From an uncultured Haliea sp. (GTDB taxonomy: Bacteria; Pseudomonadota; Gammaproteobacteria; Pseudomonadales; Halieaceae), in contig CAMYIZ010000073.1 of the NCBI GenBank assembly GCA_947258585.1, positions 1 to 57,817 of the forward strand: a stretch of 57,817 nucleotides of DNA, written 5' to 3'. The notes under the pieces are model-generated. The model saw only the letters and a program-made list of their open reading frames with translations. It was not told the DNA's origin and searched no databases. The position numbers and the translations under genes are program-made. Of the stretch, positions 32,142-57,812 are shown in pieces; within the stretch, counting starts at the first letter, position 1; every line of letters starts with the position of its first letter.

Positions 32142-34487
32142 ATGCGCCACTATTCATCCCTGTCCCTGCTGGCCTCGTCCATTGCTCTCGTGATCAGCGC
32201 TGCCGCCACCGGGCAGGAAGTCCAGCGCAGCGCGGCGCTGGAGGAGATCATCGTTACGGCGCAAAAACGCGAGCAGAACTTGCAGAGCGTGCCTATCGCG
32301 GTGACTGCCCTCAACGCCCAGACCCTGAATATGTTCCGGGTCACCAATACGGAGGACCTGAGCAACCTGGCGCCGAACCTGAACGTCCAGAACCAGGGCC
32401 GGGGCACCGTTCCCCAGATCAATATTCGCGGTGTTTCCTCCGGCGTATCCGCCGCCGAAGTGGACCCCAAGATCGCCACCTACCTGGATGGCGTATATAT
32501 CGGGCGTACCATCGGCTCCATTTTTGACATGGCGGATATTGAGCGGGTGGAAGTGTTGCGTGGTCCCCAGGGCACGCTGTTCGGGCGCAACGCGACAGGC
32601 GGCGCCATCAGTATCACTACCGCGGCGCCAACCGGCGAATTTGGGCTTTCCCAGGACGTGTCCGTTGGCAACTTTAACGCCCAGCGCTTCCGTACCATCC
32701 TGAACCTGCCCTCGACAGGCCCTCTCAGTGTCAAGCTCAGCTACCTGTACGACAAGAACGATGGCTATTCCGATAACCTGATTGCCGGGCGCACGCTGGA
32801 CCTGCGCCTGCGCAACCCGGACATGGGCGTAGTGACTTACGCAGAGAATCTGGGCAGCAAGAACGTTGAAGCCTTCATGCTGGCGGCGAACCTTGATTTC
32901 GACGCAGTGTCCGTGGACTACCGCTTTGACTACACCGACAGCATCACCGTTGGTGCGCCGGTTCAGCAGTTGGGCATTATCGGCGCTACGGCGCCCCTGG
33001 TGGGCGGCATCAACCAGTTCCAGCCTCTCTATGGCGGTATTACCAACCTGAGCACCACGCCGCTGCGAGATGTCGCGGCCGCCACCAGTGCCGAGCCCCT
33101 GCTGATCCAGGGCCACAACATTACCCTGAACTGGGAGATCAATGACAAGCTGAGCCTGAAAAGCATCACCGCCTATCGGGAGATGAACCAGCGCCCCGCC
33201 ATCTATGACCTCGGCGCCACCGGTGGCTGGAAGTTCACCGCCGCCCAACTCGGCGCGCTGTTCCAGGGCGACGTCGGCGGTATCCTGGCCAATCCCCCGG
33301 GCCCCAACGACTACCTGTTCACCCTGCTTACCGCCCGGGCGCTGGAGCAGGAACAGTTCAGTGAGGAGCTGCAGCTGACCTGGGCGACGGACCGCTACAC
33401 GCTTGTTGGTGGCGTATTCTATTTCCAGGAGGAAGCCGAAGCGCGCAATGTACTGGGGGTCTTGCAGCCGGTTGCCAACGGTGTCGTGATACCGACGCCG
33501 TTTGATGCGGTGTTCGGCAGCGGGGTCAATTCAACCGATACCGACAACAGTTCCTGGGCGGTCTTCGCCGAGGGTACCCTGCACGCCACGGAGAAGCTGG
33601 ACGTTACGCTCGGCATACGTCGCACCGAAGACGACCGTGAGATCGATCTGGTCGATATCAGTGCGACCTCCGGCGGCGGCAATCTGGCGGAGGGGGTGTA
33701 CAAGCTCAGCTACGGCGAGACCAATTACAATGTAGTGCTCAGTTACAACTGGGCCGACGACGTGATGTCCTATGCGAAAGTCAGTACCGGGTTTGTCGCC
33801 GGCGGCATCCTCAATGGCATTTCCTATGAACCCGAGTCGATCACCAACTATGAGCTGGGGGTCAAGTCACAGTTCCTGGAAAATCGCCTGCGGCTGAATG
33901 CGGCGGCCTTCTTCATGGATTACGAAGACCTGCAGGTACAGCTCTTCGAGGACGGCAAGCAGAGCTTCGAGAATGCCGGCAAAGTGGAGATCACAGGCGT
34001 CGAGATCGAGATGGACGCCATTCTCGGCGCCGGTCTGACCCTGAGCACGACACTCGGCGCCTACGATTACGAGTACAAGGAGTACATTCGCAACGGCGTC
34101 AATGTTGCCGACGATGTGCGGCCGATCAGGGCACCGGATTTCAACGCCAGAATCTCCCTGCAATACGATTTTGGCCGGCAGCTGCTGGGCGGTGCGCCGT
34201 TCATGCGCCTGGACAGCCGTTACCTGGCGGATGGCGAGAACACCGCCTTTGCCAGCGGTTTCCCGGAAGCGGACCGTCTTTCCCAGCGCGATGCCTACTG
34301 GCTGTTGAACGCGCGTGCCGGACTGATGGAAATCCCCATGGGCACGGCCGTCAGCAGTGTGTCGTTCTGGGTCAAGAACCTGCTGGATGAAGACGATATC
34401 AATGTCTTTGGCAACGAAGTCATCAACATGACTGCCCAGTACAGTGTGCCGCGCAGCTATGGCATAGACTTCAATATCACCTTCTGA
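32142..34487 (+). CDS. TonB-dependent receptor of the peptide cluster (left flank)
   Basis: The 781-residue outer-membrane receptor has a signal peptide (ending ISAAATGQE), a TonB box region LEEIIVTAQKREQNLQSVPIAV, a plug with VEVLRGPQGTLFGRNATGGAI and a barrel ending in GIDFNITF. These signatures are typical of the large IVTAQKR receptor class of Sphingomonads and marine gammaproteobacteria. A terminator follows at 34524-34547 and a convergent AraC gene comes next. Location and class suggest uptake of the substrate of the hydrolase cluster, perhaps a peptide; the ligand is unknown. Confidence 0.88.
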   Translation: MRHYSSLSLLASSIALVISAAATGQEVQRSAALEEIIVTAQKREQNLQSVPIAVTALNAQTLNMFRVTNTEDLSNLAPNLNVQNQGRGTVPQINIRGVSSGVSAAEVDPKIATYLDGVYIGRTIGSIFDMADIERVEVLRGPQGTLFGRNATGGAISITTAAPTGEFGLSQDVSVGNFNAQRFRTILNLPSTGPLSVKLSYLYDKNDGYSDNLIAGRTLDLRLRNPDMGVVTYAENLGSKNVEAFMLAANLDFDAVSVDYRFDYTDSITVGAPVQQLGIIGATAPLVGGINQFQPLYGGITNLSTTPLRDVAAATSAEPLLIQGHNITLNWEINDKLSLKSITAYREMNQRPAIYDLGATGGWKFTAAQLGALFQGDVGGILANPPGPNDYLFTLLTARALEQEQFSEELQLTWATDRYTLVGGVFYFQEEAEARNVLGVLQPVANGVVIPTPFDAVFGSGVNSTDTDNSSWAVFAEGTLHATEKLDVTLGIRRTEDDREIDLVDISATSGGGNLAEGVYKLSYGETNYNVVLSYNWADDVMSYAKVSTGFVAGGILNGISYEPESITNYELGVKSQFLENRLRLNAAAFFMDYEDLQVQLFEDGKQSFENAGKVEITGVEIEMDAILGAGLTLSTTLGAYDYEYKEYIRNGVNVADDVRPIRAPDFNARISLQYDFGRQLLGGAPFMRLDSRYLADGENTAFASGFPEADRLSQRDAYWLLNARAGLMEIPMGTAVSSVSFWVKNLLDEDDINVFGNEVINMTAQYSVPRSYGIDFNITF

Positions 34488-34555: not shown

Positions 34556-35557
34556 CTAGTGCGCCAGATCCTGGCTGGGTGCGCAGCCGTAAAACTGTTT
34601 GTAGGCGCGGCTGAAGCTGGACTGGTTCTGAAAGCCGACATCGAGGGCGACCTCCAGCACGGAGAGGCGGCCCTGTTGCAGCAGCGTCCGCGCGCGTTGC
34701 ATTCGCAGCTGCTGGCAGTACTCATAGACGCCACTGCCAAACAGGGCCTTGAAGCCCAGGGAAAGTTTATTCCGGTTCATGCCGATATGCCGGCTCATGT
34801 CGGCAAGGGACAGCGGTGAGGCGTAGCTGGTGGCGAGCTCGTCACGCACCCGGTGCAGCAGCCGGATATCATAGTCGCTCAGGCGCAGGCGCCGGGGGTC
34901 GGGTTCGTCCACGAGGGTCATGGCTTCGATGGCCAGGCACAGGAGTTCCAGCGACTTCACCTTGGCGAAGGTCTGCTGCAGCTTGCCTTCGTAGCGTGAC
35001 TGGGTCAGCTCACGTGCGGCGCTGAGCATGCCGGCGGTGAGGGGCTGGGTCCTGCTGAAATAGTGCGCCTGCTCACCGCGGAGCATCGCCTGAATGGTAT
35101 CGGGAAGCCGCTGCTCGTCCACGCCAAACTGGTCCAGAAGGAACTGTGGCCTGGCGACGATGTTCACGTAGCTGATGTTGCAATCTGCGGCATAGCACTT
35201 GGCCACACGGATGGCGTCGGTATTGGCACACATGCTGAACCGCGGGCCGGAAAACTGCATCTGGCCGTAGCCATCAACGACGGTGGTATGTTCCCCGTCC
35301 AGGGCGAACTGAAAGCCGACCCAGTCCTCGGCAATGCATCTGTCCCAGTAGGGCGTTTTCAGCTGGCCGCTGATAATCTGCACCAGGCACTGGTCGCTGA
35401 TCGGGATGTAGGTGACAAACCCCTGTGACTTTCCTCTCAGGAACAGTGATTCCAGGCTCTGGCGGGCATAGACGGGGGGCGTGGCCTCGATGATCTGGCT
35501 GTTGGAAGGCCATTCTCCCGGCGGTATGGAGACCGTTGGCGTATGGAATGCACTCAT
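34556..35557 (-). CDS. AraC/XylS-family transcriptional regulator
   Basis: The 333-residue protein has an AraC-binding-like N-terminal part and a C-terminal AraC DNA-binding domain with two HTH motifs: LSLADMSRHIGMNRNKLSLGFKALFG, then LSVLEVALDVGFQNQSSFSRAYKQFYG. The middle region resembles PchR-like and other non-sugar AraC members. The ATG at 35557 is preferred over 35602. It is divergent from the hydrolase gene at 35807 with about 250 bp of promoter DNA between them. It likely controls the rightward peptide cluster and perhaps the left receptor. The inducer is unknown. Confidence 0.85.
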   Translation of the reverse strand: MSAFHTPTVSIPPGEWPSNSQIIEATPPVYARQSLESLFLRGKSQGFVTYIPISDQCLVQIISGQLKTPYWDRCIAEDWVGFQFALDGEHTTVVDGYGQMQFSGPRFSMCANTDAIRVAKCYAADCNISYVNIVARPQFLLDQFGVDEQRLPDTIQAMLRGEQAHYFSRTQPLTAGMLSAARELTQSRYEGKLQQTFAKVKSLELLCLAIEAMTLVDEPDPRRLRLSDYDIRLLHRVRDELATSYASPLSLADMSRHIGMNRNKLSLGFKALFGSGVYEYCQQLRMQRARTLLQQGRLSVLEVALDVGFQNQSSFSRAYKQFYGCAPSQDLAH

Positions 35558-35806
35558 GGTTGCTACCATTCGTTGGCGTCGCACCGCTAAACTATTACGC
35601 AAAACCGCAGCAAAATCCAGTAAATGCCCCGGGGCGGGGCGCCGGATTTACCTCTGCGTGACAGTGTGCAACAAGATTGTGACGTCCGGCTAAATGTTTT
35701 GCGGACACGGATGACAAGCTGGGTCACTTTATCTCCTGCCACCAGAGAGGGAGCTCCTACCGATGCACAGGTATGCCATTGTCGCACCGCCCCGTGGGGG
35801 TTCGCG

Positions 35807-37096
35807 ATGAAACTGCGGCTGATGGTGTTGCTGCAAAAGCTGCTGCTGCCGCTGGTGCGTCTGGCGGTGCGCGTGGCGCCGGAGGCCTTCTTTCCGGTGC
35901 CCCGGTTTGCGCGCCCCTCGGGACGTTATCCGGTGGGGGTCCGAGATATCCAGTGTGGCGACAGCTCGCGCAGGCTGATGGCGCGAATCTGGTATCCCGC
36001 CGGGTCGGTTGCGGGCCTGGAGCGGCGCGCCTATTTCGCGACGAACGAATACCCGGTAATGGAAGCCGGCCTGATGCAGGCCCTGGGCTACAACCGGTCG
36101 ATGGTCAGGCGCCTTGCTGCCATTGAAACCTGGTCCCATGAGGGCGCGGCGCCGCTTGAGGCCGGCGAGGGCGAGCTGCCCGTAGTGCTTTTTTCCCACG
36201 GCTTCGGGTGCCTGGTGACGAGCAATACCCAGCTTTGCGAGGAACTGGCCAGCCACGGCTATCTGGTCGTATCCCTGGCGCACCCTGGCTCAACCGCGGC
36301 CTTGTGCTATCCCGATGGCAGTGGCGCGGTGCTGGCAGAGGACTGCCTGCGGACCATTGCCCGCCCGGGTTTGCTGGATCTCGCCATGGGCGTTCTGGGT
36401 GCGGGTAGCCCTGAGGAACGCAAGCGGGCGACCCTGGGCTGGTCCAGCGATGCCGGGATGAAGGCGTTGAGCGATACCTGGGTCAGCGACTCCCGGCGCT
36501 GCCTCGATGATCTCAGCGCCGGCGCCTGTGAGCCACCCTGCGAGGATCTCGTGGCGGTAGCCAATTTCAGCCGGGTTGGGGCCTGTGGCATGTCCTTCGG
36601 TGGCTCGGTCAGCGCCACCCTGGCGCAGGAGGATGGCCGCGTGGCGGCGGTGATAAACCTTGATGGGGGCCAGGTTGATACTGCGCTGGTGAACGCCCCA
36701 AGCCGGGTACCGCTGCTGATGTTGCACTCCAATGCCCTGCCGATGGCGGAACAGGGGGGGTTCAACGATTTTCACTACGAACCGCATCGTGTCGCCGGCC
36801 AGACGCCGGGGGTGGAGCGGGCGCTGGTGGATGGCTCGGCCCACATGGATTTCACCGATTCCACGGTGTTCCGGGGGCGCCTGTTGCGTTGGCTGTCGGG
36901 CCTCGGCACCATCTCGGGGGAGCGCATGGTAGCGCTCACTTCGGCTGCCTGCGTCGCCTTCCTCGACCGCCATCTTCGCGGGCGGGGCGCGGACCAGCAC
37001 GGGGGGGTCCTGCCGGGGCTGAGCCGGCAGTGGCAGGAAATCCGGATTCTGGACCTGTCGCGCGTGCGCAACGCGTCCCGGTCTCTGGGGGACTGA
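35807..37096 (+). CDS. Alpha/beta hydrolase, PAF-acetylhydrolase-like
   Basis: The 429-residue product resembles the platelet-activating factor acetylhydrolase group: GVRDIQCGDSSRRLMARIWYPA near the start, oxyanion region LPVVLFSHGFGCLV, nucleophile elbow GMSFGGS and a late His in GSAHMDFTD. The first about 30 residues are hydrophobic and could be a membrane anchor or signal. The ATG at 35807 is the first one before the hydrophobic start. The gene leads a rightward run with the MFS transporter, hydrolases and peptidases. It could hydrolyse an ester or amide of the substrate, or have a lipase-like role; this is inferred. Confidence 0.75.
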   Translation: MKLRLMVLLQKLLLPLVRLAVRVAPEAFFPVPRFARPSGRYPVGVRDIQCGDSSRRLMARIWYPAGSVAGLERRAYFATNEYPVMEAGLMQALGYNRSMVRRLAAIETWSHEGAAPLEAGEGELPVVLFSHGFGCLVTSNTQLCEELASHGYLVVSLAHPGSTAALCYPDGSGAVLAEDCLRTIARPGLLDLAMGVLGAGSPEERKRATLGWSSDAGMKALSDTWVSDSRRCLDDLSAGACEPPCEDLVAVANFSRVGACGMSFGGSVSATLAQEDGRVAAVINLDGGQVDTALVNAPSRVPLLMLHSNALPMAEQGGFNDFHYEPHRVAGQTPGVERALVDGSAHMDFTDSTVFRGRLLRWLSGLGTISGERMVALTSAACVAFLDRHLRGRGADQHGGVLPGLSRQWQEIRILDLSRVRNASRSLGD

Positions 37097-37195
37097 TGAG
37101 GTCCATTGTGCGGTATCCCGATCCGGAGGGCGTCGCAGGGAGCGCTCGGGCGAGATCCGGCAGAGTAGCGACGAGAAGCAAGGGAGCCCTGTACC

Positions 37196-38518
37196 ATGAG
37201 TGAATCCAGCGCAGCGATACAGTCTCTGCCTGTCGCACAGGGCCAGGCGGACGAGCAGGCGGGCAGGGCCTATTTGCGCTACGCGCTGACCCTGCTGGTC
37301 CTGGTGTCCGTTTTCAATGCGATCGACCGCTCGATCCTGGTGGCTTTGCTTGAGCCGATCAAGGACGAACTGCAGCTGAGTGACCTGCAGCTGGGTCTGA
37401 TTTCCGGGGTGGCTTTTTCAGTGTTTTACGCGACTCTCGGCATTCCCTTTGCGCGCTGGGCGGATCTCGGCAGTCGACCGAAGCTCTTGTCGTTCACGGT
37501 CGGCTTGTGGAGCCTGATGACCGCCCTGGCGGCCGGCGCGCAGAATTTCACCCACCTGTTCCTGACCCGGGTGGGCGTGGGTATCGGCGAAGCCGGCGGC
37601 AATCCGGCGGCATTGTCGCTGTTGAGCGAATTGTTCCGGATCCGCAAGGGCGGGGTGGCCACTGCGCTGTTCCTGGTGGGAGCCAGCATCGGTGGTGTGG
37701 TCGGTATGTGGGGCGGGGCGGCGCTCGCCTCCGTCTGGGGCTGGCGGATTGCGTTCCTGGTCATGGGCATACCGGGGATATTTCTCGCCGTGTTGATCAG
37801 GTTCACCTTGCGCGAGCCGCGCCAGCACTGCCGCCTGCCATCGTTCTCGGAGGCCTTTGGCAGGGACCTGCTCCGCACCGCCAAAACCCTGTTCGTACGC
37901 CCCAGTTTCTTTCACTGCATCGTCGGTTTCACCGTATTCGGCCTTTTTGGCCAGGGCAGCACACAGTGGAGCATCAGCTACCTCGTGCGGACCTTCGAGT
38001 TGCCACTGGACGAGATCGCGGGGATATTCAGCATCGCGGTCGGCGGTGCCACGATCATCGGCACCCTGCTGGGTGGCTACGTGGCAAACTTTATCGGCGC
38101 CCGCAACGCCCGCGGCTACCTGCTGTTTCCCTGCGCGATGATTCTGCTCAACGTACCGATCTACATTCTGGTGTACACCCTGAACTCGGTCTACATGGTG
38201 GTGGCGATGAGCGCCTTGTCAGGGCTGTTCCTCGGCCTGATGACGCCCTGCATCTTCGCGTGTATCTTCGGGATCTGCGGGGTAGAGCATCGCGCCATGG
38301 GGCTGGCTCTGCTGGGCATGTTTTCCGCACTGATCGGAGGGGGTGTCGGCCCTCTGTTGATCGGTGGTTTGAGTGACCTTATCTACCCGTTCTTCGAGCA
38401 GCACTCGCTGCGGATGGCACTGCTGATGAGTGTGGTGTTCCTGCCGCTATCCGTGCTGTTTTTCTTCCGCGCATCGCTGACCCTCGCGGCGGACTTCCAC
38501 GACCCGGCTGACCACTGA
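37196..38518 (+). CDS. MFS transporter, Spinster-like
   Basis: The 440-residue protein has twelve membrane helices and the Spinster pattern: VLVSVFNAIDRSILVALLEPIKDELQLSDLQLGLISGVAFSVFYATLGIPFARWAD, with FNAIDRS and GEAGGNPAALSLLSE. A start codon lies 6-10 bases after GGAGCC. The position between the hydrolase and the MlrB-like genes fits a permease, comparable to MlrD in microcystin clusters, though MlrD belongs to another transporter family. It probably carries an amphipathic organic molecule or peptide fragment; the direction of transport is unknown. Confidence 0.85.
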   Translation: MSESSAAIQSLPVAQGQADEQAGRAYLRYALTLLVLVSVFNAIDRSILVALLEPIKDELQLSDLQLGLISGVAFSVFYATLGIPFARWADLGSRPKLLSFTVGLWSLMTALAAGAQNFTHLFLTRVGVGIGEAGGNPAALSLLSELFRIRKGGVATALFLVGASIGGVVGMWGGAALASVWGWRIAFLVMGIPGIFLAVLIRFTLREPRQHCRLPSFSEAFGRDLLRTAKTLFVRPSFFHCIVGFTVFGLFGQGSTQWSISYLVRTFELPLDEIAGIFSIAVGGATIIGTLLGGYVANFIGARNARGYLLFPCAMILLNVPIYILVYTLNSVYMVVAMSALSGLFLGLMTPCIFACIFGICGVEHRAMGLALLGMFSALIGGGVGPLLIGGLSDLIYPFFEQHSLRMALLMSVVFLPLSVLFFFRASLTLAADFHDPADH

Positions 38519-38684
38519 CCGCGCTTGCAGGCGACCCATTGGTGTCCGACCCTTTGCCGCTGAACGGTAGCGCCCCGAACGAACCGCCCGTTACCGAGAG
38601 TGACTTGCCGCTAAAACTCCGTGACGATATGCAGCACCCGCACTGAACAGCTCTGCCATGCTTCTCCACATCGTCCGCTGAAGT

Positions 38685-40091
38685 GTGGCAAACATGGAAC
38701 AGACTCAGGCAAGTTATCTGCAGGCAACTCTCGATGAGCTACGACACAGGCACGGCGTTGTCGGTGCCTCCCTGGCCATTCTCCACGAGGGCGGGCTGGA
38801 GACAGCGGTCAGTGGCGTGCTCAATCGTGAAACCCTCGTCCCGGTTACCGCCGACTCGCTGTTTCAGGTCGGGTCGATCACCAAGGTTTTTACCGCGACC
38901 CTGGTCATGCAGCTGGTCGACGAGGGTCTCGTAGACCTGGACCAGACGGTGCAAACCTACCTTCCGCAACTGTGCACCTCGCAGGCAGCGGCATGCCGGC
39001 AGGTGACGGTCCGTCAGTTGCTGTGTCACACCAGCGGCCTGGAGGGTGATTTCTTCCCCGAGGATGACCCTTTCGGGCCGTCCATCGCCGGCTTTGTCGA
39101 GCGCTGCCGGCTATTGCCGCAGCTGCACCCCGTGGGAGAGCGTTTCTCCTACTGCAACAGCGGCTACACCATCGTTGGGCGGTTGCTCGAAGTGGTGACC
39201 GGGCGCCCCTGGGCTGGGCTGATGCGGGAGCGGATACTCGAGCCGCTGGGCCTGCAGCAAGTGCTGGTGGATCCGGCGGATGCCCTCCGCTTTCGCGTGG
39301 CCATGGGTCACCTGAAAGGAGAAGGCGAGGACGCTGCTCACTGTCTGGCCCCCAAGTGCTACCTGCCCCTGAGCCACGCGCCCGCGGGCACCGTACTGTC
39401 GATGTCGGCAACAGACCTTCTCGGTTTCGCGCGCGCCCATATGGACGGCTGTTCGGACCGGGCGGATACGCTGCTGTCGGCTGTCTCCCGGGATGCGATG
39501 CAACAGCCCCAAGTCGCCGTGCCGCGCCACTCTCCGCCTGCCATGACCCACTGGGGTCTGGGCTGGATCGTGGGCAGCTGCAACGGTGAAACCGTGGTCA
39601 GCCATTACGGCGGTACCTTGGGTCAATTCGGGTATCTGCGGTGTTTTCCCCGCCGGGGACTGGCGCTCGCTGTCCTGACCAATAGTGACAGCATGGGTAT
39701 GTACGAGGAACTCGAAGCCGAGCTCTTGTCCGGTATTGCCGGAATTACCCTGCCTCGCGACGCAAGTAGCGAGGAGTCCGCTGGACCTGCGGATCGCTTT
39801 GTCGGTTGTTACCAGAACATGGCGCAGCGGATCGAGGTTGTTGTCGGCGACGGCGGCCTGGTCGCTCGCCGCTCTGAGCTTGCGCAGCCGGATACTGTTG
39901 TTGCAAGCCGGTTGGCCCCGATCGACAGCGACTGCTTTGCCGCGCGTTGGCCGCGCAGCAGCACGCAGCAGACCATCGCCTTTCTCGACCAGGATTCGGC
40001 TGGACGGGCGCGCTATCTGTCTATCGGTTTTCGCCTGCTGCGGCGGGTGGCGAACGGGGACTCCCGCGCTGCCTCGCAGGGGGCCGGGTGA
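38685..40091 (+). CDS. Beta-lactamase-family serine hydrolase, MlrB-like (copy 1)
   Basis: The 468-residue protein belongs to the class C beta-lactamase/MlrB/esterase superfamily. The catalytic tetrad motifs are S64-I-T-K67 (VGSITKVFTATLV), Y156-C-N158 and a late HYGGTLG that replaces the KTG motif. It has a C-terminal domain of about 100 residues and no signal peptide. A shared block with copy 2, VTVRQLLCHTSGLEGDFFPED, shows that the two are close paralogs. The start may be GTG 38685 or ATG 38694. In mlr clusters the homologous enzyme opens a linearised cyclic peptide; here an amidase or peptidase role on a peptide substrate is inferred. Confidence 0.82.
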   Translation: MANMEQTQASYLQATLDELRHRHGVVGASLAILHEGGLETAVSGVLNRETLVPVTADSLFQVGSITKVFTATLVMQLVDEGLVDLDQTVQTYLPQLCTSQAAACRQVTVRQLLCHTSGLEGDFFPEDDPFGPSIAGFVERCRLLPQLHPVGERFSYCNSGYTIVGRLLEVVTGRPWAGLMRERILEPLGLQQVLVDPADALRFRVAMGHLKGEGEDAAHCLAPKCYLPLSHAPAGTVLSMSATDLLGFARAHMDGCSDRADTLLSAVSRDAMQQPQVAVPRHSPPAMTHWGLGWIVGSCNGETVVSHYGGTLGQFGYLRCFPRRGLALAVLTNSDSMGMYEELEAELLSGIAGITLPRDASSEESAGPADRFVGCYQNMAQRIEVVVGDGGLVARRSELAQPDTVVASRLAPIDSDCFAARWPRSSTQQTIAFLDQDSAGRARYLSIGFRLLRRVANGDSRAASQGAG

Positions 40092-40218
40092 CGCCCTTTG
40101 CACATCATCAATCCAGGGCCATGGAAGCAAGTCCCGCCATGAACGCCTGGAGCAGCGTGCGGGTGCGCGGTCGGCTGTGCCGTCGCTGTAGAAACCCCGG
40201 GTCAAGGATATTCAAGCC

Positions 40219-41697
40219 ATGCACATGTTCGCCGCGGCATTCAATACCGAAACCAATACCTTCTCGCCCTTCCCCACCGGTGAGCGTCATTTCAGGCTGT
40301 GTCACCGCGAGGACTTCCTCGCGGATCCCGCCCGAATTCATGGCCTGGGCTGCCTGACAACCTGGCAGCAGCTGTGTCTTGAACAGGGGCACCAGCTAAC
40401 GCTGAGCCTGAGCGCCTTCGCCGAGCCTTCCGGTCGCATTGTGCGCAGGGTCTATGAAAAGCTTCGCGATGAAATCCTCGCTGACCTGCGGTCGGCGGGG
40501 AATGTCGACGTGGTGTTGCTTGACCTGCACGGGGCCATGGCCGCGGAGGGTTACGACGACTGCGAGGGCGACCTGATCAGTCGCATCCGGCAATGCGTTG
40601 GCCCGGCAGTGGTGATCGCGGTGGAGCTGGATCTGCACTGCCATTTCAGCGCGGCGATGCTGGAGCACGCCGACCTGATGATCTGTTATAAGGAATATCC
40701 GCACATTGATATCAATGATCGGGCGGTGGAACTGTTTAATCTGGCAGTCAGGACCCGGGCGCGAGAGATACGTCCAACCATGGCCCTGTTCGATTGCAAA
40801 ATGATCGGGATGTACCCCACATCCGGTGGACCGATGCACGATTTTGTCCAGCGCATGGTCGATCATGAGGCCCAGGAAGGCGTACTGTCGGTGTCTCTCG
40901 GGCACGGCTTTCCCTGGGGAGATGTGGCGGATGCCGGCAGCCAGCTGCTGGTGGTAACAGACGACGCTGCGGAGCTGGCAGCAGAGCTGGCACGAGAACT
41001 GGGGCTGGCGTTCTTTGCCCTCAGGGGCACGGTGGAGTTTGCCTCCCTGCCGCTGGAAGAAGCGATGTCGAAAGCGCTGGCCAGCCCGCACAGACCGGTG
41101 GTAGTTGCGGACCAGGCTGATAATCCTGGTGGCGGCGCGCCGTCGGATTCCACCCATGCCTTGCGCTGGCTGCTGGCACACAAGGTGGCCCCCGCCGCGG
41201 TTGCCGTCCTCTACGATCCCGAAGTGGTGAAGCTCGCCATGACCGCGGGCGAAGGGGCGAGGCTCCGGGTGCGACTTGGGGGCAAGATGAGTGCGGAGTC
41301 CGGCGATCCCCTGGACCTGACCACTGTCGTCGTGGCGCTGGCCGGGAACCATCAGCATTGTTTCCCGCAGCGACAGGGAGAGGACTACGTGTTCTCCCTC
41401 GGTGATACGGCTGTGCTACGCTGCGAGGGCATCGACATTGTCGTCAGCAGTGAACGCGGGCAATGCTTCTCGCCCTGCATCCTGTCTGACTTCGGGCTCG
41501 ATCCGCTGCGCTACAAGGTGATCGTGCCGAAATCAACCCAGCACTTCCACGGCGCTTTCGCGCCTATCGCGGCTGAGATTATCTATATGGCCGCGCCCGG
41601 AGCGATCGCCCCGATCATGCAGCAGATTCCCTTTGTGCGGGTCGATACCGCGGACAAGTACCCGTGGAATGACTCGCCGCATGGGCCACTTGGCTGA
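40219..41697 (+). CDS. M81 family metallopeptidase, MlrC-like
   Basis: The 492-residue protein has the two MlrC domains. The N-terminal part shows AAAFNTETNTFSPFPT, VDVVLLDLHGAMAAEGYDDCEGDL and VELDLHCHFSAAM with the metal ligands H and D. The C-terminal part shows VVADQADNPGGGAPSDSTHALRWLL. These are the M81 signatures (a DLHGAM block and a D-NPGGG block). MlrC cleaves the linear tetrapeptide in microcystin degradation; other M81 enzymes act on unusual amide bonds. It sits between the two MlrB-like genes. The true substrate here is unknown; length is close to the family norm (about 490-510). Confidence 0.88.
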   Translation: MHMFAAAFNTETNTFSPFPTGERHFRLCHREDFLADPARIHGLGCLTTWQQLCLEQGHQLTLSLSAFAEPSGRIVRRVYEKLRDEILADLRSAGNVDVVLLDLHGAMAAEGYDDCEGDLISRIRQCVGPAVVIAVELDLHCHFSAAMLEHADLMICYKEYPHIDINDRAVELFNLAVRTRAREIRPTMALFDCKMIGMYPTSGGPMHDFVQRMVDHEAQEGVLSVSLGHGFPWGDVADAGSQLLVVTDDAAELAAELARELGLAFFALRGTVEFASLPLEEAMSKALASPHRPVVVADQADNPGGGAPSDSTHALRWLLAHKVAPAAVAVLYDPEVVKLAMTAGEGARLRVRLGGKMSAESGDPLDLTTVVVALAGNHQHCFPQRQGEDYVFSLGDTAVLRCEGIDIVVSSERGQCFSPCILSDFGLDPLRYKVIVPKSTQHFHGAFAPIAAEIIYMAAPGAIAPIMQQIPFVRVDTADKYPWNDSPHGPLG

Positions 41698-41744
41698 TAC
41701 CGAGGCAGGCTGAAATTCCGTTATCACATGGAGGTAACAAACCG

Positions 41745-43133
41745 GTGACATATCAGGACACACTGCAGAGCTGGTTCGATGCACGCAGGCGTGAGTACGG
41801 TGTGGTGGGCGCATCTCTGGCCCTGTTCTCCAAGGGGGAACTGGAGTCGACTGCCGCCGGTGTACTCAACCTGGACACTGGAGTGCCGGTGTCCACAGGC
41901 TCCCTGTTCCAGATCGGATCGATCAGCAAGGTATTTACTGCGACCCTGGTCATGCAGCTGGTGGATGAGGGACGCCTGGATCTCGACTGTCCGGTGCAGC
42001 GCTACCTGCCGGGATTCGCCATTGCCGATGCGGATGCATCGCGACTGATCACCGTGCGCCAGTTACTGTGTCACACCAGCGGCATGGAAGGAGACTTCTT
42101 CCCGGATGACCCGCGCTGGAGCGGGGCTGTATCGAGGTATGTGGAACAGTGCCGCCTGCTGCCCCAGCTGCATCCCGTCGGCGCGTACTTCTCCTACTGT
42201 AATAGCGGTTTTACCGTTGCCGGGCTACTGGTGGAACTTCTCACCGGGCAGCCGTGGCATGTAGCTGTGCGCGAGCGGATCTTCCGGCCGCTGGGCATGG
42301 CGGAGGCGGTCTGTGACCCGGCAGAGCTGCCGCGCTACAGCGCGGCCATCGGGCATGTTCCGCGGCAGGACGACGCTGCGCTCAGCATGGTTGCGGACCG
42401 GTGCTTTCTGCCGCCGGGCCTGGGTCCTGCCGGTGCGGTGCTGATGATGTCGGCGACGGACCTCATGCGCTTTGCCTGTTGCCATCTGTATGACGGCAAG
42501 GTGGCCCCTGGCGATTCGGTGCTGTCGGCGCGCTCGGTACAGGAGATGCGGCAAGCGCAGCTGCAACTACCGGCTCATTTTCCGCTGGGCGCCACGGCCT
42601 GGGGGCTCGGCTGGTATCTCGGGGAGACTGCGGGGCGGCGCATGTTCGGACACAATGGGGGAACGATCGGGCAGTTCGCCTACCTCCATGTATACCCGGA
42701 GCACGAGTTTGCCATCTGTCTGCTCAGCAATAGCCGCAGCGCTGCGTTTTTCTCCAGAATCGAGGAGGAACTGCTGTCGCAACGTCTGGATATCCAGCCC
42801 CACCCGGCGCCGGCCTGCGCGGTACAGCCCCGCGATTTTCCTCCCTACTGTGGCCGCTATCAGAACCTGGGAGGCACCCTGCAGATCAGCGACCGGCAGG
42901 GAACCCTGCACGCCGACTTCCACAGCGAGATCGGTGACCGCTTGGCGTCTCCCCTGCAAGCACTCGGGGATCACTGCTTTATCACCGGAGGCAGCGACCA
43001 GCAGCCCGGGCTAACACTGCACTTTCTCGGTCTGGATGGCGGAGAGGCAGCCTACGTACTGGCCGGGAGCCGACTGCTGCGACGGGTCGACGGCACGGGC
43101 GTGGCGAACAAAGAGGGAGTGCCGGACGCGTGA
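41745..43133 (+). CDS. Beta-lactamase-family serine hydrolase, MlrB-like (copy 2)
   Basis: The 462-residue protein is a close paralog of the one at 38685: S59-I-S-K62 (SLFQIGSISKVFTATLVMQLVDEG), Y151-C-N153 and GHNGGTIGQF as the third motif. The block LLCHTSGMEGDFFPDDP is nearly the same as in copy 1. The GTG at 41745 has GGAGG 9 bases upstream and keeps the full N-terminus. The gene ends with a GTGA overlap of 4 bp with the dipeptidase. Two paralogs of one enzyme in a single operon suggest different cleavage steps of one molecule. Confidence 0.82.
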   Translation: MTYQDTLQSWFDARRREYGVVGASLALFSKGELESTAAGVLNLDTGVPVSTGSLFQIGSISKVFTATLVMQLVDEGRLDLDCPVQRYLPGFAIADADASRLITVRQLLCHTSGMEGDFFPDDPRWSGAVSRYVEQCRLLPQLHPVGAYFSYCNSGFTVAGLLVELLTGQPWHVAVRERIFRPLGMAEAVCDPAELPRYSAAIGHVPRQDDAALSMVADRCFLPPGLGPAGAVLMMSATDLMRFACCHLYDGKVAPGDSVLSARSVQEMRQAQLQLPAHFPLGATAWGLGWYLGETAGRRMFGHNGGTIGQFAYLHVYPEHEFAICLLSNSRSAAFFSRIEEELLSQRLDIQPHPAPACAVQPRDFPPYCGRYQNLGGTLQISDRQGTLHADFHSEIGDRLASPLQALGDHCFITGGSDQQPGLTLHFLGLDGGEAAYVLAGSRLLRRVDGTGVANKEGVPDA

Positions 43134-44578
43134 CTGCAGAGACTCTGGATGATTTGCACGGGCCGCTGTGGGAGCACTTTCAGGCGCTCAGCCGAATTCC
43201 GAGGCCCTCCCGGCAGGAAGCCCGCGCCAGGGACTACGTGGCCGCGGTTGCCGATTCGAGAAACCTTCGCTGGGCGATAGATGAGATTGGCAACATTGTA
43301 GTCTACCTGCCTGCCACACCCGGGATGGAGAAGCGCGATACGGTGATCGTGCAGAATCACCTGGATATGGTGACTGTTCAGGCCCGCGACAAGGTTCACG
43401 ATTTTACTCGCGACCCGCTGCAGCTGAGGCTCGCGGACGGTTGGCTGCTTGCGGACCGGACCACACTGGGCGCCGACAACGGCATCGGCTGTGCGGCGGC
43501 GCTGGCCCTGATCTCGGCCAGTGACCTGGTGCACCCCGCACTGGAGCTTCTGTTCACTGTTGACGAGGAGACAGGTATGGGCGGCGCTCGTCATCTCGAT
43601 GCGGAGCTGCTGTGTGGAAAGCGCCTGCTCAATCTGGATACAGAGGACTGGGGGGAGCTGTATATCGGTTGTACCGGTGGTCGTGGCTGGTCCATGGAGT
43701 GCGAGTTTGGTTTGGACCTCGTGCCGGACGACCATGTGGGCGGCGAGTTGTCGCTGGTCGGGCTGGCGGGCGGACACTCGGGGCTGGACATCCACTTGCA
43801 GCGCGGCAATGCAATCCAGCTGCTGGCTGACTGGCTCAATCGAGCGGGCTTGCTCGGAGTCAGGCTGGCCCAACTCGACGCAGGAATTGCGCACAACGTG
43901 ATTCCCAGGGACGGCCGGGTCCGGTTTTCCTGCCCGGGGCGGGCGCTGCCCGCGCTGCGGGCGCTGAATGACCAATTACTGCAAGTGTGGCGAAGTTACC
44001 TGCCGGAGGCGGATGCCGCCCTGCAGTTGTCGATGGAATCCGTGCGAGTTGAGCGAGTTCTGCCGGAGGAGTCGCAGACGCTGTTGTGCAGGGCACTGCT
44101 CATGCTGCCGCATGGGGTAGAGCGCTATGCTACCGCCCAGGCAGGCACAATGGCTTCGCTTAGCAGTAACCTGGGTGTAGCGCGACTGGAAGACGGCGCG
44201 CTGTATATAGAGCTAAGCCTGCGCTATTTCCGTGACTCTGAGGCGGAGTCGCTGACAGCGAAGGTGTTGTCGGTGTCTGACAGCTGTGGCTTCTCGACAG
44301 CCAGAATCCTCAACTACCCCGGGTGGGTGCCGGATTCCGACAGCCAGCTTCTGCAGCGCGCCTGCGAGGTTTACCAGCGGCGTTTCGGGGAGCCGCCGCG
44401 AATCAAGCTGATCCACGCGGGCCTGGAATGCGGTGTTCTGAAGCACAGGCTGGGTGAGTTGGAGGTCATTTCCTTCGGTCCTACGATTCGCGATGCGCAC
44501 TCGCCCGGCGAGCGCCTTGAGGTGGCGACGGTCGCGCCTTTCTGGCAGTACCTTACGGATTTACTCGCCACTCTCTAA
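43130..44578 (+). CDS. M20C family aminoacyl-histidine dipeptidase (PepD-like)
   Basis: The 482-residue cytoplasmic protein fits PepD. Zinc-site residues are H77 and D79 (QNHLDMV), D116 (LGADNGIG), E146 and E147 (VDEETGMGGA), D170 (NLDTEDW) and a late H in LIHAGLECGVL. They align at nearly the same positions as in E. coli PepD (H80, D82, D119, E149, E150, D173, H461). The GTG overlaps the hydrolase stop by 4 bp, so translation is coupled. It would cleave dipeptides released by the other enzymes into free amino acids, the last step of a peptide degradation chain. Confidence 0.85.
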   Translation: MTAETLDDLHGPLWEHFQALSRIPRPSRQEARARDYVAAVADSRNLRWAIDEIGNIVVYLPATPGMEKRDTVIVQNHLDMVTVQARDKVHDFTRDPLQLRLADGWLLADRTTLGADNGIGCAAALALISASDLVHPALELLFTVDEETGMGGARHLDAELLCGKRLLNLDTEDWGELYIGCTGGRGWSMECEFGLDLVPDDHVGGELSLVGLAGGHSGLDIHLQRGNAIQLLADWLNRAGLLGVRLAQLDAGIAHNVIPRDGRVRFSCPGRALPALRALNDQLLQVWRSYLPEADAALQLSMESVRVERVLPEESQTLLCRALLMLPHGVERYATAQAGTMASLSSNLGVARLEDGALYIELSLRYFRDSEAESLTAKVLSVSDSCGFSTARILNYPGWVPDSDSQLLQRACEVYQRRFGEPPRIKLIHAGLECGVLKHRLGELEVISFGPTIRDAHSPGERLEVATVAPFWQYLTDLLATL

Positions 44579-44765: not shown

Positions 44766-47033
44766 ATGACTACACAAAAAATCTACGGGGCTGTCAGCAG
44801 CAGCAACAGGGACTTCGTACAATCGGCGATTGCCGCGGGTCTCGGCCTGGCAGTCCAGCTTGGTGCATGCACTGCCTGGGCGCAGGAACAAAGTGCGGCG
44901 GTGTTGGAGGAAGTGGTGGTCACGGCCAACAAGCGCAGCCAAAGCCTGCAGGATGTGGCGGCCAGTGTGTCGGCCCTGACCACAGGCAGCATCGAACGCC
45001 AGGGGCTGGATGACTTCGCCGGCGTAGCCCGCGTCCTGCCTGGCGTGACCCTGAACCAGCCGGTAAAAAACCGCGCCGTGTTCAATATCCGCGGTCTCTC
45101 CACCAACATTGGCGGCGGCAACACCCAGGACCCTGTGGCGGTCTACATCAACGACATGCCGGTAACGGATACTTTCGGCGCCTCGGTGCAGCCGGATCTG
45201 AGGCTTTATGATGTAGAGCGGGTCGAGGTCCTGCGCGGCCCGCAGGGTACGCTGTTCGGTTCGGGTTCCCTCGCTGGCACGGTGAGAATCATCACCAACA
45301 AGCCGGAGATGTCGGCGTTTGATGGATCCCTGCGCGCGGACCTGGCGAACACCGACGACGCCGGTCTTCGCCAGCGTTATGATGCCATGGTGAACATCCC
45401 GCTGGTGGACGACAGCCTGGCGTTGCGTGCGGTGGCCTATTATCGCGATGAGGCCGGCTGGGTGGATAACCTGGTGCTGGGAACCGATAACAGCACTGAG
45501 GACAAGGGCGGCAGGCTGTCCCTGCGTTGGCAGCCGGGCGATGCCTTCAGGCTGACCGGCGAAGTGCTGTACCAGGACAGCGATCCCGAGGATGGAGACA
45601 GCTGGGCTCCCGAATTGGGGAAATTCAACAAGTCTTCCACCCTTGCCGAAGGCCGACCCTCGACGATCACCAGCTACAACCTGACCCTGGAATACGTCAT
45701 TCCGGATTTCGCCGACCTGGTGTCGACAACGTCGTATCTGGAATCGGAGACCGCGGTCAGTATTGACTACGGGGATATCACCGGTCTCGGTTTTCCTCTG
45801 CACGCCCGCAACGCGCCCTGGGAAATCGACTTCCTGACCCAGGAATTGCGCCTCGTTTCCAACACCGATTCAGGCCTGGACTGGGTGCTCGGTGCCTTCT
45901 ACATTGAGCGTGAGTCGGTGGCAGACTTCAATTTCCAGCTGGTGGGGCTCGCCGACTTCTTTAACCCGATACTCGGCGCGGGCCTGCCGCCCAGCGATAA
46001 CTTCCTGGTGACGCGTACCACCACTCGCTCGGAAGAAATGGCAGTCTTTGCCGATATCAACTACCAGCTTACCGGGCAATGGTACCTGGGCGGTGGCGTG
46101 CGGGTTGCCGATACCGAGGTAAGCATCAATGAGCCGCGGCGGGAGGTGTTGAATTTTGCGACATTCCTGCCAGCGGTGATGTCCTTCAGCAATGAAGGCG
46201 AGGATTCGGGCATTGTCACCTGGCGAGGGTCCCTGTCTTACCAGCCTGCGGATTCCCTGCATTTCTACGCCAGTGTCAGCAAGGGTTACCGCATCGGCCA
46301 GACCAACCCGTTCGTCGGGCGCAGCCCGGTAGATCCCGAGGACCCGCTGGATATCCCCAACATTTACCAGCCCGATGAAACGCTCAACTACGAGCTGGGC
46401 GCCAAGACCCTGTTGTGGGACCAGCGCCTGCGCCTGAATGTCGCCGCCTACTACATTGAATGGGAGGATATCCAGGTCGACGCCATTCGCCTCTCTGACG
46501 TTGCCAACTACATCGCCAACGCGGGCGAGGCGATATCCCGCGGGGTTGAAGTGGAGATGCAGTTGACGCCGCTGGAGGGGCTGGTGTTCGACCTTTCCCT
46601 GGCGCTGCAGGACGCCGAGATCGACAGCATCAGCGCGGCGGACAGTCTCCGCTCCGGTGTGCTGGAGGGCGATATCCTGCCAGGCTCCATGGATTACACC
46701 CTGGCCGCTGCGGTGCAATATACCTGGCCTCTGGCCAGCGGCCGGCAGATGTATGCCAGGCTCGCAGCCCAGCTGGTCGACTCGTCCCCCAATGGCTTTT
46801 CCAACCAGGCGGGCAGCCTTGACGTCAACCCCTTCCTGGCGGAAAACGAGGCTTATGAAAATGTCGATGCCAGCATTGGTTTGGTAACGGATCAGTGGGA
46901 GCTGAGCCTTTACGGTGAAAACCTTACCAACAATGATGACTACATTCTCAACGGCGGAGCGAACTCGGGGGTGAATTATATCAACACCCTCCGTCCGCGA
47001 ACCCTGGGCATGCGGTTGCACTATTTCTTCTGA
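44766..47033 (+). CDS. TonB-dependent receptor of the peptide cluster (right flank)
   Basis: The 755-residue outer-membrane receptor has a signal peptide (ending CTAWAQE), TonB-box-like LEEVVVTANKRSQSLQDVAASV, a plug with VEVLRGPQGTLFGSGSLAGTV and a barrel ending TLGMRLHYFF. It belongs to the same class as the receptor at 32142 but is clearly diverged. It follows the dipeptidase by 187 bp in the same direction. It probably imports the substrate or fragments of it. Two receptors flanking one catabolic set suggest either two substrates or a substrate with variants. Confidence 0.88.
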   Translation: MTTQKIYGAVSSSNRDFVQSAIAAGLGLAVQLGACTAWAQEQSAAVLEEVVVTANKRSQSLQDVAASVSALTTGSIERQGLDDFAGVARVLPGVTLNQPVKNRAVFNIRGLSTNIGGGNTQDPVAVYINDMPVTDTFGASVQPDLRLYDVERVEVLRGPQGTLFGSGSLAGTVRIITNKPEMSAFDGSLRADLANTDDAGLRQRYDAMVNIPLVDDSLALRAVAYYRDEAGWVDNLVLGTDNSTEDKGGRLSLRWQPGDAFRLTGEVLYQDSDPEDGDSWAPELGKFNKSSTLAEGRPSTITSYNLTLEYVIPDFADLVSTTSYLESETAVSIDYGDITGLGFPLHARNAPWEIDFLTQELRLVSNTDSGLDWVLGAFYIERESVADFNFQLVGLADFFNPILGAGLPPSDNFLVTRTTTRSEEMAVFADINYQLTGQWYLGGGVRVADTEVSINEPRREVLNFATFLPAVMSFSNEGEDSGIVTWRGSLSYQPADSLHFYASVSKGYRIGQTNPFVGRSPVDPEDPLDIPNIYQPDETLNYELGAKTLLWDQRLRLNVAAYYIEWEDIQVDAIRLSDVANYIANAGEAISRGVEVEMQLTPLEGLVFDLSLALQDAEIDSISAADSLRSGVLEGDILPGSMDYTLAAAVQYTWPLASGRQMYARLAAQLVDSSPNGFSNQAGSLDVNPFLAENEAYENVDASIGLVTDQWELSLYGENLTNNDDYILNGGANSGVNYINTLRPRTLGMRLHYFF

Positions 47034-56523: not shown

Positions 56524-57812
56524 CTTCCCGACACATAGGTTCCACTTTATTCCGGGCACATAGGTTACACAATTGAGGTATTTGGAGGAGGACTCCAGAT
56601 GCCCTGGAAAGAGTGTAACTGTATGGACGAGCGCCTCAAATTTGTAGCCCGCCTGTTGGATGGCGAGAAAATGGCGGTCATGTGCCGGGAGTTCGGCATC
56701 TCCCGCAAGACTGGATATAAAATCTTCAATCGATTCAAGGATTGCGGGATTCGGGGTCTGGAGGATAAGGCCCGCAGCCCCTACCGGCACCCAAACAAGA
56801 CGCCCTTTCAGGTTGAAAAAGCCATCCTGAAAATTAAGCGGGAGCACAGGACATGGGGCGCGCCCAAAATCCGGGAGAAGCTGATCAAGGAGTTTCCGGT
56901 GATCAGGCCACCGGCTCCCAGCACCATTCATGCGATCCTTGATCGACATGGGTTGGTTACCCGCCGCAGGCGCAAACGCTACAAAGCCAAGGGTACAGAG
57001 CTCAGTGCAGCTCAAAGTCCAAATGCTCTGTGGTGTGCTGACTACAAGGGTGAGTTCCTGCTGGGCAACCGCAAGTACTGCTATCCACTGACAATCACTG
57101 ACCAACGCTCCCGGTATCTGCTGGCCTGTGAGGGCCTGGAGTCAACCAAAGCAGTGGGCGCTTTTCCCGTATTTGAGCGCGTTTTCCGGGAGTTCGGGTT
57201 GCCTGCGGCTATCCGGACCGATAATGGAGTGCCTTTCGCCTCGCCCCACGCCTTGTTCGGGTTGAGTCGACTATCCGTCTGGTGGCTGCGCCTGGGCATT
57301 GCGATAGAGCGGATAAAGCCGGGCAATCCCCAGCAGAACGGACGGCACGAGCGGATGCACCTGACCCTGAAGAAGGAGGCCACCAAGCCTGCCAGTTTCA
57401 ACTTCTTGCAGCAGCAGGGCCGGTTTGATGAGTTCATTGAGGGTTACAATAACGACCGGCCTCACCAGGCCCTTGGAGGGATGTATCCCGGCGAAGTATA
57501 TACACCCTCAGCCCGAGCTTACTTCCATCCAGAGGTCCCCGAATATCCGTTTCATGACCGCACCATCCTGGTCACCCAGTGCGGACGAATATGCATCGGG
57601 CGGCGCAAGGTAAATCTCAGTACTGTGTTTGCGGGCCAATACGTGGGTATTAGGGAGGTCGCCGACGAGATCTGGCTTGTCAGCTTTATGGATTATGACC
57701 TAGGATTCTTTGACCAGAACGAGAACAGGGTGGAGCCGGTAGGGGTTAACCCCTTCGCTCCAAAAGTGTTACCCATGTCCTCGGAATAAACTGTCACCTA
57801 TGTGGCCGGAAA
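56524..57812 (+). mobile_element. IS481-type insertion sequence
   Basis: One transposase gene is bounded by matching ends. The left end (from about 56524) reads CCGACACATAGGTTCC and then TTTATTCCGGGCACATAGGT. The right end, reverse-complemented, reads CCGGCCACATAGGTGACAG and then TTTATTCCGAGGACATGGGT. Each end thus carries the ACATAGGT unit twice in tandem, about 30 bases apart. The element appears complete but ends only a few bases from the window edge, so the target-site duplication cannot be checked. Confidence 0.8.
56599..57789 (+). CDS. IS481-family transposase
   Basis: The 396-residue protein has an N-terminal helix-turn-helix (FVARLLDGEKMAVMCREFGISRKTGYKIFNRFK) and a DDE integrase core: D in WCADYKGEF, D in IRTDNGVPF and E in NGRHERMHLTLKKE, then NNDRPHQALGGMYPGEVY. 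The C-terminal part (GQYVGIREVADEIWLVSF) is typical of IS481. All catalytic residues are present and there is no frameshift, so it may be active. An alternative start is the ATG at 56623 (MDERLKF). Confidence 0.92.
   Translation: MPWKECNCMDERLKFVARLLDGEKMAVMCREFGISRKTGYKIFNRFKDCGIRGLEDKARSPYRHPNKTPFQVEKAILKIKREHRTWGAPKIREKLIKEFPVIRPPAPSTIHAILDRHGLVTRRRRKRYKAKGTELSAAQSPNALWCADYKGEFLLGNRKYCYPLTITDQRSRYLLACEGLESTKAVGAFPVFERVFREFGLPAAIRTDNGVPFASPHALFGLSRLSVWWLRLGIAIERIKPGNPQQNGRHERMHLTLKKEATKPASFNFLQQQGRFDEFIEGYNNDRPHQALGGMYPGEVYTPSARAYFHPEVPEYPFHDRTILVTQCGRICIGRRKVNLSTVFAGQYVGIREVADEIWLVSFMDYDLGFFDQNENRVEPVGVNPFAPKVLPMSSE

Follow-up and report, generated by a model that had tools for sequence, protein, structure and literature searches.

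The stretch of DNA analysed here, referred to below as the window, is a contig of 57,817 nucleotides (C73; GenBank CAMYIZ010000073.1, assembly GCA_947258585.1) from an uncultured Haliea sp. of the family Halieaceae, which belongs to a 4.19 Mb assembly of 77 contigs listed as 96% complete, and its subject is a run of hydrolase and carrier genes that would serve the uptake and breakdown of small peptides. On the forward strand, the run starts with an alpha/beta hydrolase resembling PAF-AH II (35807..37096, with an alternative start at 35624; PF03403, 79.6 bits, cut-off 20), followed by an MFS_1 transporter (37196..38518; PF07690, 143.9 bits, cut-off 33.4), a serine hydrolase of the S12 family with the beta-lactamase fold (S12a, 38685..40091; PF00144 from residue 13, 221.4 bits, cut-off 27), a metallopeptidase of the M81 family, that of MlrC (40219..41697; PF07364, 270.5 bits, cut-off 22.8, and PF07171, 170.1 bits, cut-off 27.2), a second S12 hydrolase (S12b, 41745..43133; PF00144 from residue 8, 239.0 bits, cut-off 27) and an M20C dipeptidase of the PepD type (43130..44578; NCBIfam model TIGR01893, 436.9 bits, cut-off 343.75, and PF01546, 41.6 bits, cut-off 24.6). 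The gaps between these six genes measure 99, 166, 127, 47 and -4 bp, and because of their shortness a single six-gene operon is plausible. A TonB-dependent receptor gene (44766..47033; PF00593, 113.9 bits, and PF07715, 66.4 bits), found 187 bp downstream and also on the forward strand, is possibly the last gene of the run. At the other end an AraC-type regulator (34556..35602, reverse strand; PF12833, 79.2 bits, and PF00165, 46.6 bits) diverges from the run at a distance of 204 bp from position 35807, and beyond it lies another TonB-dependent receptor gene (32142..34487, forward strand; PF00593, 134 bits, and PF07715, 76 bits). All genes named in a preliminary description of this DNA are thus found as long open frames whose coordinates agree, or very nearly so, with those it assigned to them, and so are both flanking receptors, but the AraC gene, which points the other way, stands between the left receptor and the run, and this receptor is therefore regarded as a unit of its own. 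We consider it likely that the run is a peptide uptake-and-hydrolysis operon, at which strength its earlier interpretation as a dedicated peptide-degradation locus devoid of MlrA, probably with a substrate other than microcystin, is supported. Judging from sequences and one structural model, peptides containing D-residues appear to be the best-supported class of substrates for such an AraC-controlled import and breakdown operon, with a probability of about 0.5.

The two S12 hydrolases are duplicates with 47% identity over 446 residues, as their description as a doubled enzyme had implied, and since they flank M81, they suggest that the duplication took place in or together with this locus. Both retain the SxxK, YxN and HxG motifs. 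Relatives of S12b at E<=1e-50 were found only in the window's own genome, i.e. in one of 140 genomes of the family (for some of which the first 11 candidates were scored), while the subgroup formed by the pair is also represented in the SAR92 clade bacterium H231 (37% identity) and in an Anaerolineae metagenome-assembled genome (MAG), locus L048 (30-32%). By sequence, the solved structures closest to S12a and S12b are IS11, SurE, Ulm16 and alkaline D-peptidase. The label 'MlrB-like', by which both had been known, holds for membership of the S12/beta-lactamase superfamily and no further. S12b was modelled with AlphaFold from 9 sequences (mean pLDDT 73.9, pTM 0.81), and the model has a predicted C-terminal strand-rich domain, which may correspond to the lipocalin-like domain of IS11, SurE and Pab87. 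In a Foldseek search this model matched IS11 first and over its full length (TM 0.82), followed within the first 20 rows by SurE, Pab87 (2qmi), Ulm16, the Lip3 DL-peptidase and the R61 DD-peptidase, as well as by a D-stereospecific hydrolase, an alkaline D-peptidase, a D-aminopeptidase and a D-amino acid amidase. According to passages of the respective papers, Pab87 breaks down D-amino-acid peptides (PMC2651629), and in the reaction of the PBP-type thioesterases of the SurE type an N-terminal L-residue is joined to a C-terminal D-residue (PMC11735501).

A second line of evidence is provided by 80 loci with related M81 genes, which are the best of a longer list, lean towards the window's M81 and are in many cases located on short contigs. 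An S12 gene is found within 10 kb of M81 in 9 of them; six of the matches lie at most 1 kb away, two at 1-2.5 kb, three at 2.5-5 kb, none at 5-7.5 kb and one at 7.5-10 kb (copies less than 300 bp apart, as in L048 and L091, were merged, and the S12 profile was made from 9 sequences including four of those loci). Eleven of the 80 loci are presumably beta- or gammaproteobacterial, and six of these 11 carry S12. Markers of D-amino-acid metabolism were sought with single seeds by tblastn at E<=1e-6, and their absences carry little weight, because only single seeds were used and many contigs are short. In the strict sense (DgcN, D-TA, M55) these markers are present in 4/9 S12-bearing loci and in 1/71 others (p 0.0004, the rows being related to one another). 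They include genes of the DgcN type in L047, L066 and L091, which at 426-463 bits do not reach the cut-off of 480, a D-TA relative in L093 with 29% identity to a gene annotated as such and, outside the strict set, DgcA in L091 (417.4 bits, over the cut-off of 400). D-aminopeptidase is the best NCBIfam model for six of eight S12s of these relatives (two in L066, two in L091, and those of L093 and L125), which score 66-165 bits with none over the cut-off of 443; it is not the best model for the S12s of L094 and L048. The best solved structure for the S12 of L093 is the D-aminopeptidase 1ei5. Seven plasmid records were viewed, one of them lacking annotation; among the six annotated M81 regions, two contain M55 and a D,D-dipeptide permease, one D-TA and RidA, and two an FAD-dependent oxidoreductase with TRAP genes, while the remaining one has no D-amino-acid gene and only an unrelated-looking catabolic set. 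On a tree of M81 made by a quick method, nearness to S12 requires six label changes, five of them forced, which is a generous count, since it treats as S12-near two rows of the type of the genome's second M81 (S12 on the opposite strand, at a distance of about 7.4 kb) and L068 (S12 on the other strand). Without those rows four lineages are left, namely the window with SAR92, L048, the beta/gamma clade and L070, or three if L048 joins the first, as an open fork allows. No papers on S12-M81 loci other than those on mlr were found among the open-licence literature matches listed.

The nearest relatives of the window's M81 are two copies in H231 (53 and 54% identity), joined with it in the tree at an SH-aLRT of 99; the clade that contains all three has 15 rows, 9 of them from Chloroflexota. 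The H231 locus (L047/L037) encodes a FecR protein, a TonB receptor, a DgcN-type protein (463.3 bits, cut-off 480), an MFS_2 carrier, M81 and S12, and further two SDRs, a deacetylase-like protein, an AMP-ligase and the second M81. Orthologues within the family were considered and rejected: apart from the gene itself, the M81 matches in the 140 family genomes are at most 37% identical. A draw of 369 genomes at the class level yielded no further M81 at E<=1e-90. The window's genome has a second M81 on another contig (G000:C76, 27958-29415; L042:9958-11415), of a type present in three of eight genomes of the genus (this one, G019 and G023). In G019 such a gene (L044:335-10317) is accompanied by S12, an AMP-ligase, a class III aminotransferase, a thiolase, an S58 peptidase, an ornithine cyclodeaminase-like gene and aminotransferase genes, and the locus looks like one for the catabolism of beta-peptides or beta-amino acids. 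Three M81 genes in a row were seen in two alphaproteobacterial MAGs (L108, ~7.0-11.5 kb; L120, ~0.9-5.5 kb), and two adjacent yet distant M81s (51% and 31-32% identical to the window's) in the Chloroflexota MAGs L049 and L050.

Several observations weigh against substrates with D-residues, beginning with those from a survey of the phylum, in which 60 of 116 places with M81 genes in 397 genomes were examined (40 genomes, picked to spread the genera) together with 40 control stretches from 20 of the surveyed genomes. S12 is not enriched near M81 (3/60 vs 3/40 controls), nor are DgcN, DgcA, D-TA or M55 significantly so (3/60 vs 0/40, p 0.21), and the M81 family as a whole is accordingly not supported as a marker of D-peptides by the 60 loci. 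A neighbourhood survey had been proposed earlier as a check on the doubled hydrolases. Outside the window, M81 is accompanied by two or three S12s in L048, L066, L091 and L094, but as S12 shows no phylum-wide enrichment, the S12-M81 pairing seems confined to a part of the family. What is enriched near M81 are peptide ABC importers (22/60 vs 2/40, p 0.00015); DadA/FAD-type oxidases are present in 7/60 vs 0/40 (p 0.024) and TonB receptors in 2/60 vs 2/40. From these contrasts, M81 as a family is associated with the uptake of peptides, and any link to S12 and D-amino acids concerns at most a part of it. The D-link is concentrated among the M81s close to that of the window. When the M81s at least 36% identical to that of the window are set apart, markers including DgcA are found in 3/9 vs 0/51 (p 0.0025) and S12 in 2/9 vs 1/51 (p 0.056); at a cut of 38%, the respective values are 2/8 vs 1/52 (p 0.044) and 1/8 vs 2/52 (p 0.35), both cuts having been chosen after the data were seen. 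Moreover, seeds for PAF-AH, M20C and AraC match none of the 80 M81 loci (E<=1e-6), so that the full gene combination is seen only here. This last result, and the presence of importers rather than S12s near M81 in the survey, would also be expected if the run served the general use of L-peptides or consisted of unrelated hydrolases that are merely adjacent; however, the S12 duplicates on either side of M81, the second copy of M20C, the short gaps and the pairing of S12 with M81 in other lineages, in part together with TonB receptors, argue to the contrary, and we regard this explanation as very improbable. Two other loci may be mentioned here: L169 (G1203:C10:35100-51100), one of the 60 and a point in favour of the D-residue reading, where M81 (45%), S12, MFS and S12 genes adjoin on one strand in another run of S12, M81 and MFS, and L178 (G934:C1:2255800-2271800), where relatives of DgcN, DgcA, SDR, S12, S58, M81, a TonB receptor and TRAP are found within 16 kb.

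The window itself adds to the objections. A Pfam scan of 10 proteins detected no DgcN, D-TA or M55 in its run, and the DgcN family has 0 matches in its genome. The latter result bears especially on a special case of the D-residue reading, in which the cells would scavenge peptidoglycan fragments (peptides of the type L-Ala-D-Glu-DAP-D-Ala, DAP being diaminopimelic acid). The DgcN-type and DgcA genes of D-Glu catabolism that adjoin M81 in relatives and the DD-peptidase-like folds among the matches of S12 speak in favour of this source, but besides the missing DgcN, none of the 10 proteins in the scan matched a ligase, a lytic enzyme or an amidase of murein, and we find it rather unlikely. As to the S12s, with the D-aminopeptidase model NF009622 they score 53.4 and 49.0 bits against a cut-off of 443, class C beta-lactamases and a family VIII esterase also match the S12b model, many of them from rank 21 on, and the solved structure closest to both, IS11, is described in passages of PMC9972953 as a carboxylesterase generally without apparent enantio-preference, its preferred ester being that of an (R)-hydroxy acid.

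The rank of IS11, which heads the sequence comparisons of both S12s as well as the fold comparison of the S12b model, directs attention to the degradation of esters or lactones, in which the S12s would be IS11-like esterases and the PAF-AH-like enzyme a second esterase, with M81 and M20C clearing the amide parts of a depsipeptide or a polyester. In the PAF-AH-like protein the Ser, Asp and His positions are kept in an alignment with the PAF-AH structure 5i8p, of which the second stretch is weak (i-Evalue 0.014). Relatives with 35-36% identity are found in three other genomes of the 140 of the family, where two of them adjoin a TonB receptor and two have S12 nearby, in agreement with such a role. 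On the other hand, two peptidase families, M81 and M20C, are encoded in the same run, and many other fold neighbours of S12 act on D-residue peptides; degradation of esters is therefore in our opinion unlikely, yet it is an explanation to be kept in mind. In one of the three genomes, G035, a TonB receptor, the PAF-AH-like gene, a GntR-like gene, an M19 dipeptidase and S12 are clustered (L148:4368-12834), the dipeptidase and the GntR-like gene (whose 21.7 bits fall short of its cut-off, 27) being placed between S12 and the PAF-AH-like gene, and no match to M81 was found in this 18 kb stretch. The M20C gene of the window is the second copy in the genome, 54% identical to the other (G000:C62:44690-46108); matches at E<=1e-30 are present in 45 of the 140 family genomes, the window's included. 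Both this additional copy and the cluster of G035 count in favour of the D-residue reading.

The preliminary description compared the locus to the microcystin-degrading mlr cluster and noted that mlrA is absent, and the latter point can be extended to the whole genome: PF02517, the family of MlrA-type CAAX/Abi proteases, has 0 matches there at E<=0.001, while the same search was positive in 11 of 14 control genomes. The closeness to mlr otherwise implied is not borne out. M81 scores 313.6 bits with the MlrC model NF041767, far under its cut-off of 999, and 291 bits with the MlrC structure 7ylq. It has both Pfam domains of the family, and the zinc ligands of MlrC, E39, D167, H169 and H191, taken together with the substrate-site residues from passages of PMC9982164 and PMC4810221, are kept as E11, D138, H140 and H162 (one passage of PMC9982164 has H196 where others have H191). 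Of the nine substrate-site residues checked, N41, F96, D341 and S392 (MlrC numbering) are kept, while W59, F67, E70, Q468 and S485 are changed, in an alignment that is loose around positions 57-72 and does not include R492. In the quick-method tree MlrC is placed outside the clade of the window's M81 on a long branch, for which reason its position is unsure. According to passages of PMC12474180, a signal peptide is predicted for MlrB, and MlrD contains a PTR2 domain; the domains of S12a and S12b, as read from their coordinates, start too close to the N-terminus to leave room for such a peptide, and PF07690, as the only Pfam match of the carrier, leaves it without PTR2. On these grounds (MlrC score, PF02517, substrate residues, carrier, signal peptide and tree), an mlr cluster minus only mlrA was rejected. 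No mlr cluster was found among the best 10 of 384 plasmid records. A downstream part of the degradation of microcystin or nodularin, for which other bacteria would have linearised the peptides, would still use the M81 and S12 families common to MlrC and MlrB, with the zinc ligand positions intact; given the same differences, this too has a very low probability, and microcystin is an unlikely substrate. The joint occurrence of M81, S12 and an MFS carrier should not be equated with microcystin degradation.

If the substrates are indeed small peptides on which ordinary L-specific peptidases work poorly, most likely those with D-residues, the following route can be proposed. AraC would control the operon, whose genes would be transcribed together, and a TonB receptor would carry the peptide across the outer membrane. 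An ester, lactone or acyl group may then be lost through the action of the PAF-AH-like esterase, after which the MFS carrier would transfer the product to the cytoplasm. There, S12a and S12b would cleave at D-residues, with differing side-chain preferences, and the M81 zinc peptidase would cleave the bond left by them, in the way MlrC does at the Adda-Glu bond of microcystin, the Glu of which is D-configured. Finally, the extra M20C dipeptidase would complete the breakdown of dipeptides.

Since MlrB (at Ala-Leu) and MlrC (at Adda-Glu) both cleave next to a D-residue, one may go further and tentatively see in S12 and M81 a reusable two-enzyme module for D-residue peptides, assembled repeatedly with different S12 subgroups and importers, of which MlrB/MlrC would be one specialised case and the locus in the window a new version, fed by TonB and with doubled S12. 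To our knowledge, little has been established about the uptake of whole D-residue peptides by bacteria. D-amino acids belong to the marine organic matter that is difficult to degrade, as stated in PMC12363236. If S12-M81 loci do serve the uptake of D-peptides, they could be used to recognise this ability in genomes. Some of the many M81 genes that owe their name solely to MlrC would then have a role open to testing, and the enzymes of microcystin degradation might have their ancestry here.

As to the surroundings of the run, a scan for consensus promoters between 31900 and 47200 was uninformative (1 promoter-like site vs 2.9 expected), and 16 terminator-like sites in the same interval against 10.6 expected (standard deviation 3.6) settle nothing. 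GC3, the GC content at third codon positions, is 0.73-0.81 in the six genes and 0.71-0.79 in their neighbours, hence there is no compositional sign of transfer. Farther downstream, between 47701 and 52078, the window encodes a TPR protein, a protein which we take to be DUF4331-like, and two genes reading like those of a sigma factor and a partner protein. All four have relatives that are grouped in G020 and G023, in 20 kb stretches where the other genes of the window have no match. At the contig end, an open reading frame (ORF) at 56599-57789 reads like a transposase, as judged from its sequence.

Compared with known systems, the locus shares with the mlr cluster (mlrC-mlrA-mlrD-mlrB) the presence of M81, S12 hydrolases and an MFS-superfamily carrier in one place, but it differs by the lack of an MlrA-type protease, by a carrier of the MFS_1 instead of the PTR2 type, by S12s that are doubled and devoid of a signal peptide, by co-directional genes and by the additional M20C, PAF-AH-like, AraC and TonB receptor genes. 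With the PBP-type S12 enzymes that have a lipocalin domain (IS11, SurE, Ulm16 and Pab87) the window's S12s have in common the catalytic motifs and, in the case of the S12b model, the full-length fold; unlike them, they sit with M81 and M20C, and as no complete ORF in the window exceeds 979 amino acids, no megasynthase lies beside the run, which also counts in favour of the D-residue reading. The beta- and gammaproteobacterial loci of Paucibacter (L066), Variovorax (L093), Stenotrophobium (L091), Mitsuaria (L094) and Burkholderiales (L125) resemble it in that S12, often in more than one copy, adjoins M81, with a TonB receptor in L066, L093 and L094 and an MFS-type carrier in L066, L091 and L093, whereas their S12s belong to other subgroups, their M81s to another clade, and D-amino-acid markers or FAD oxidases are present. 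H231 offers the nearest M81s, one S12 of the same subgroup, a TonB receptor and an MFS-type carrier, but the latter is of the MFS_2 type, a DgcN-type gene, two SDRs, the deacetylase-like gene and the AMP-ligase are added, and neither PAF-AH-like nor M20C is matched. Taken together, we see in the locus a novel variation on peptide-utilisation loci that are already known, not a system of a new type.

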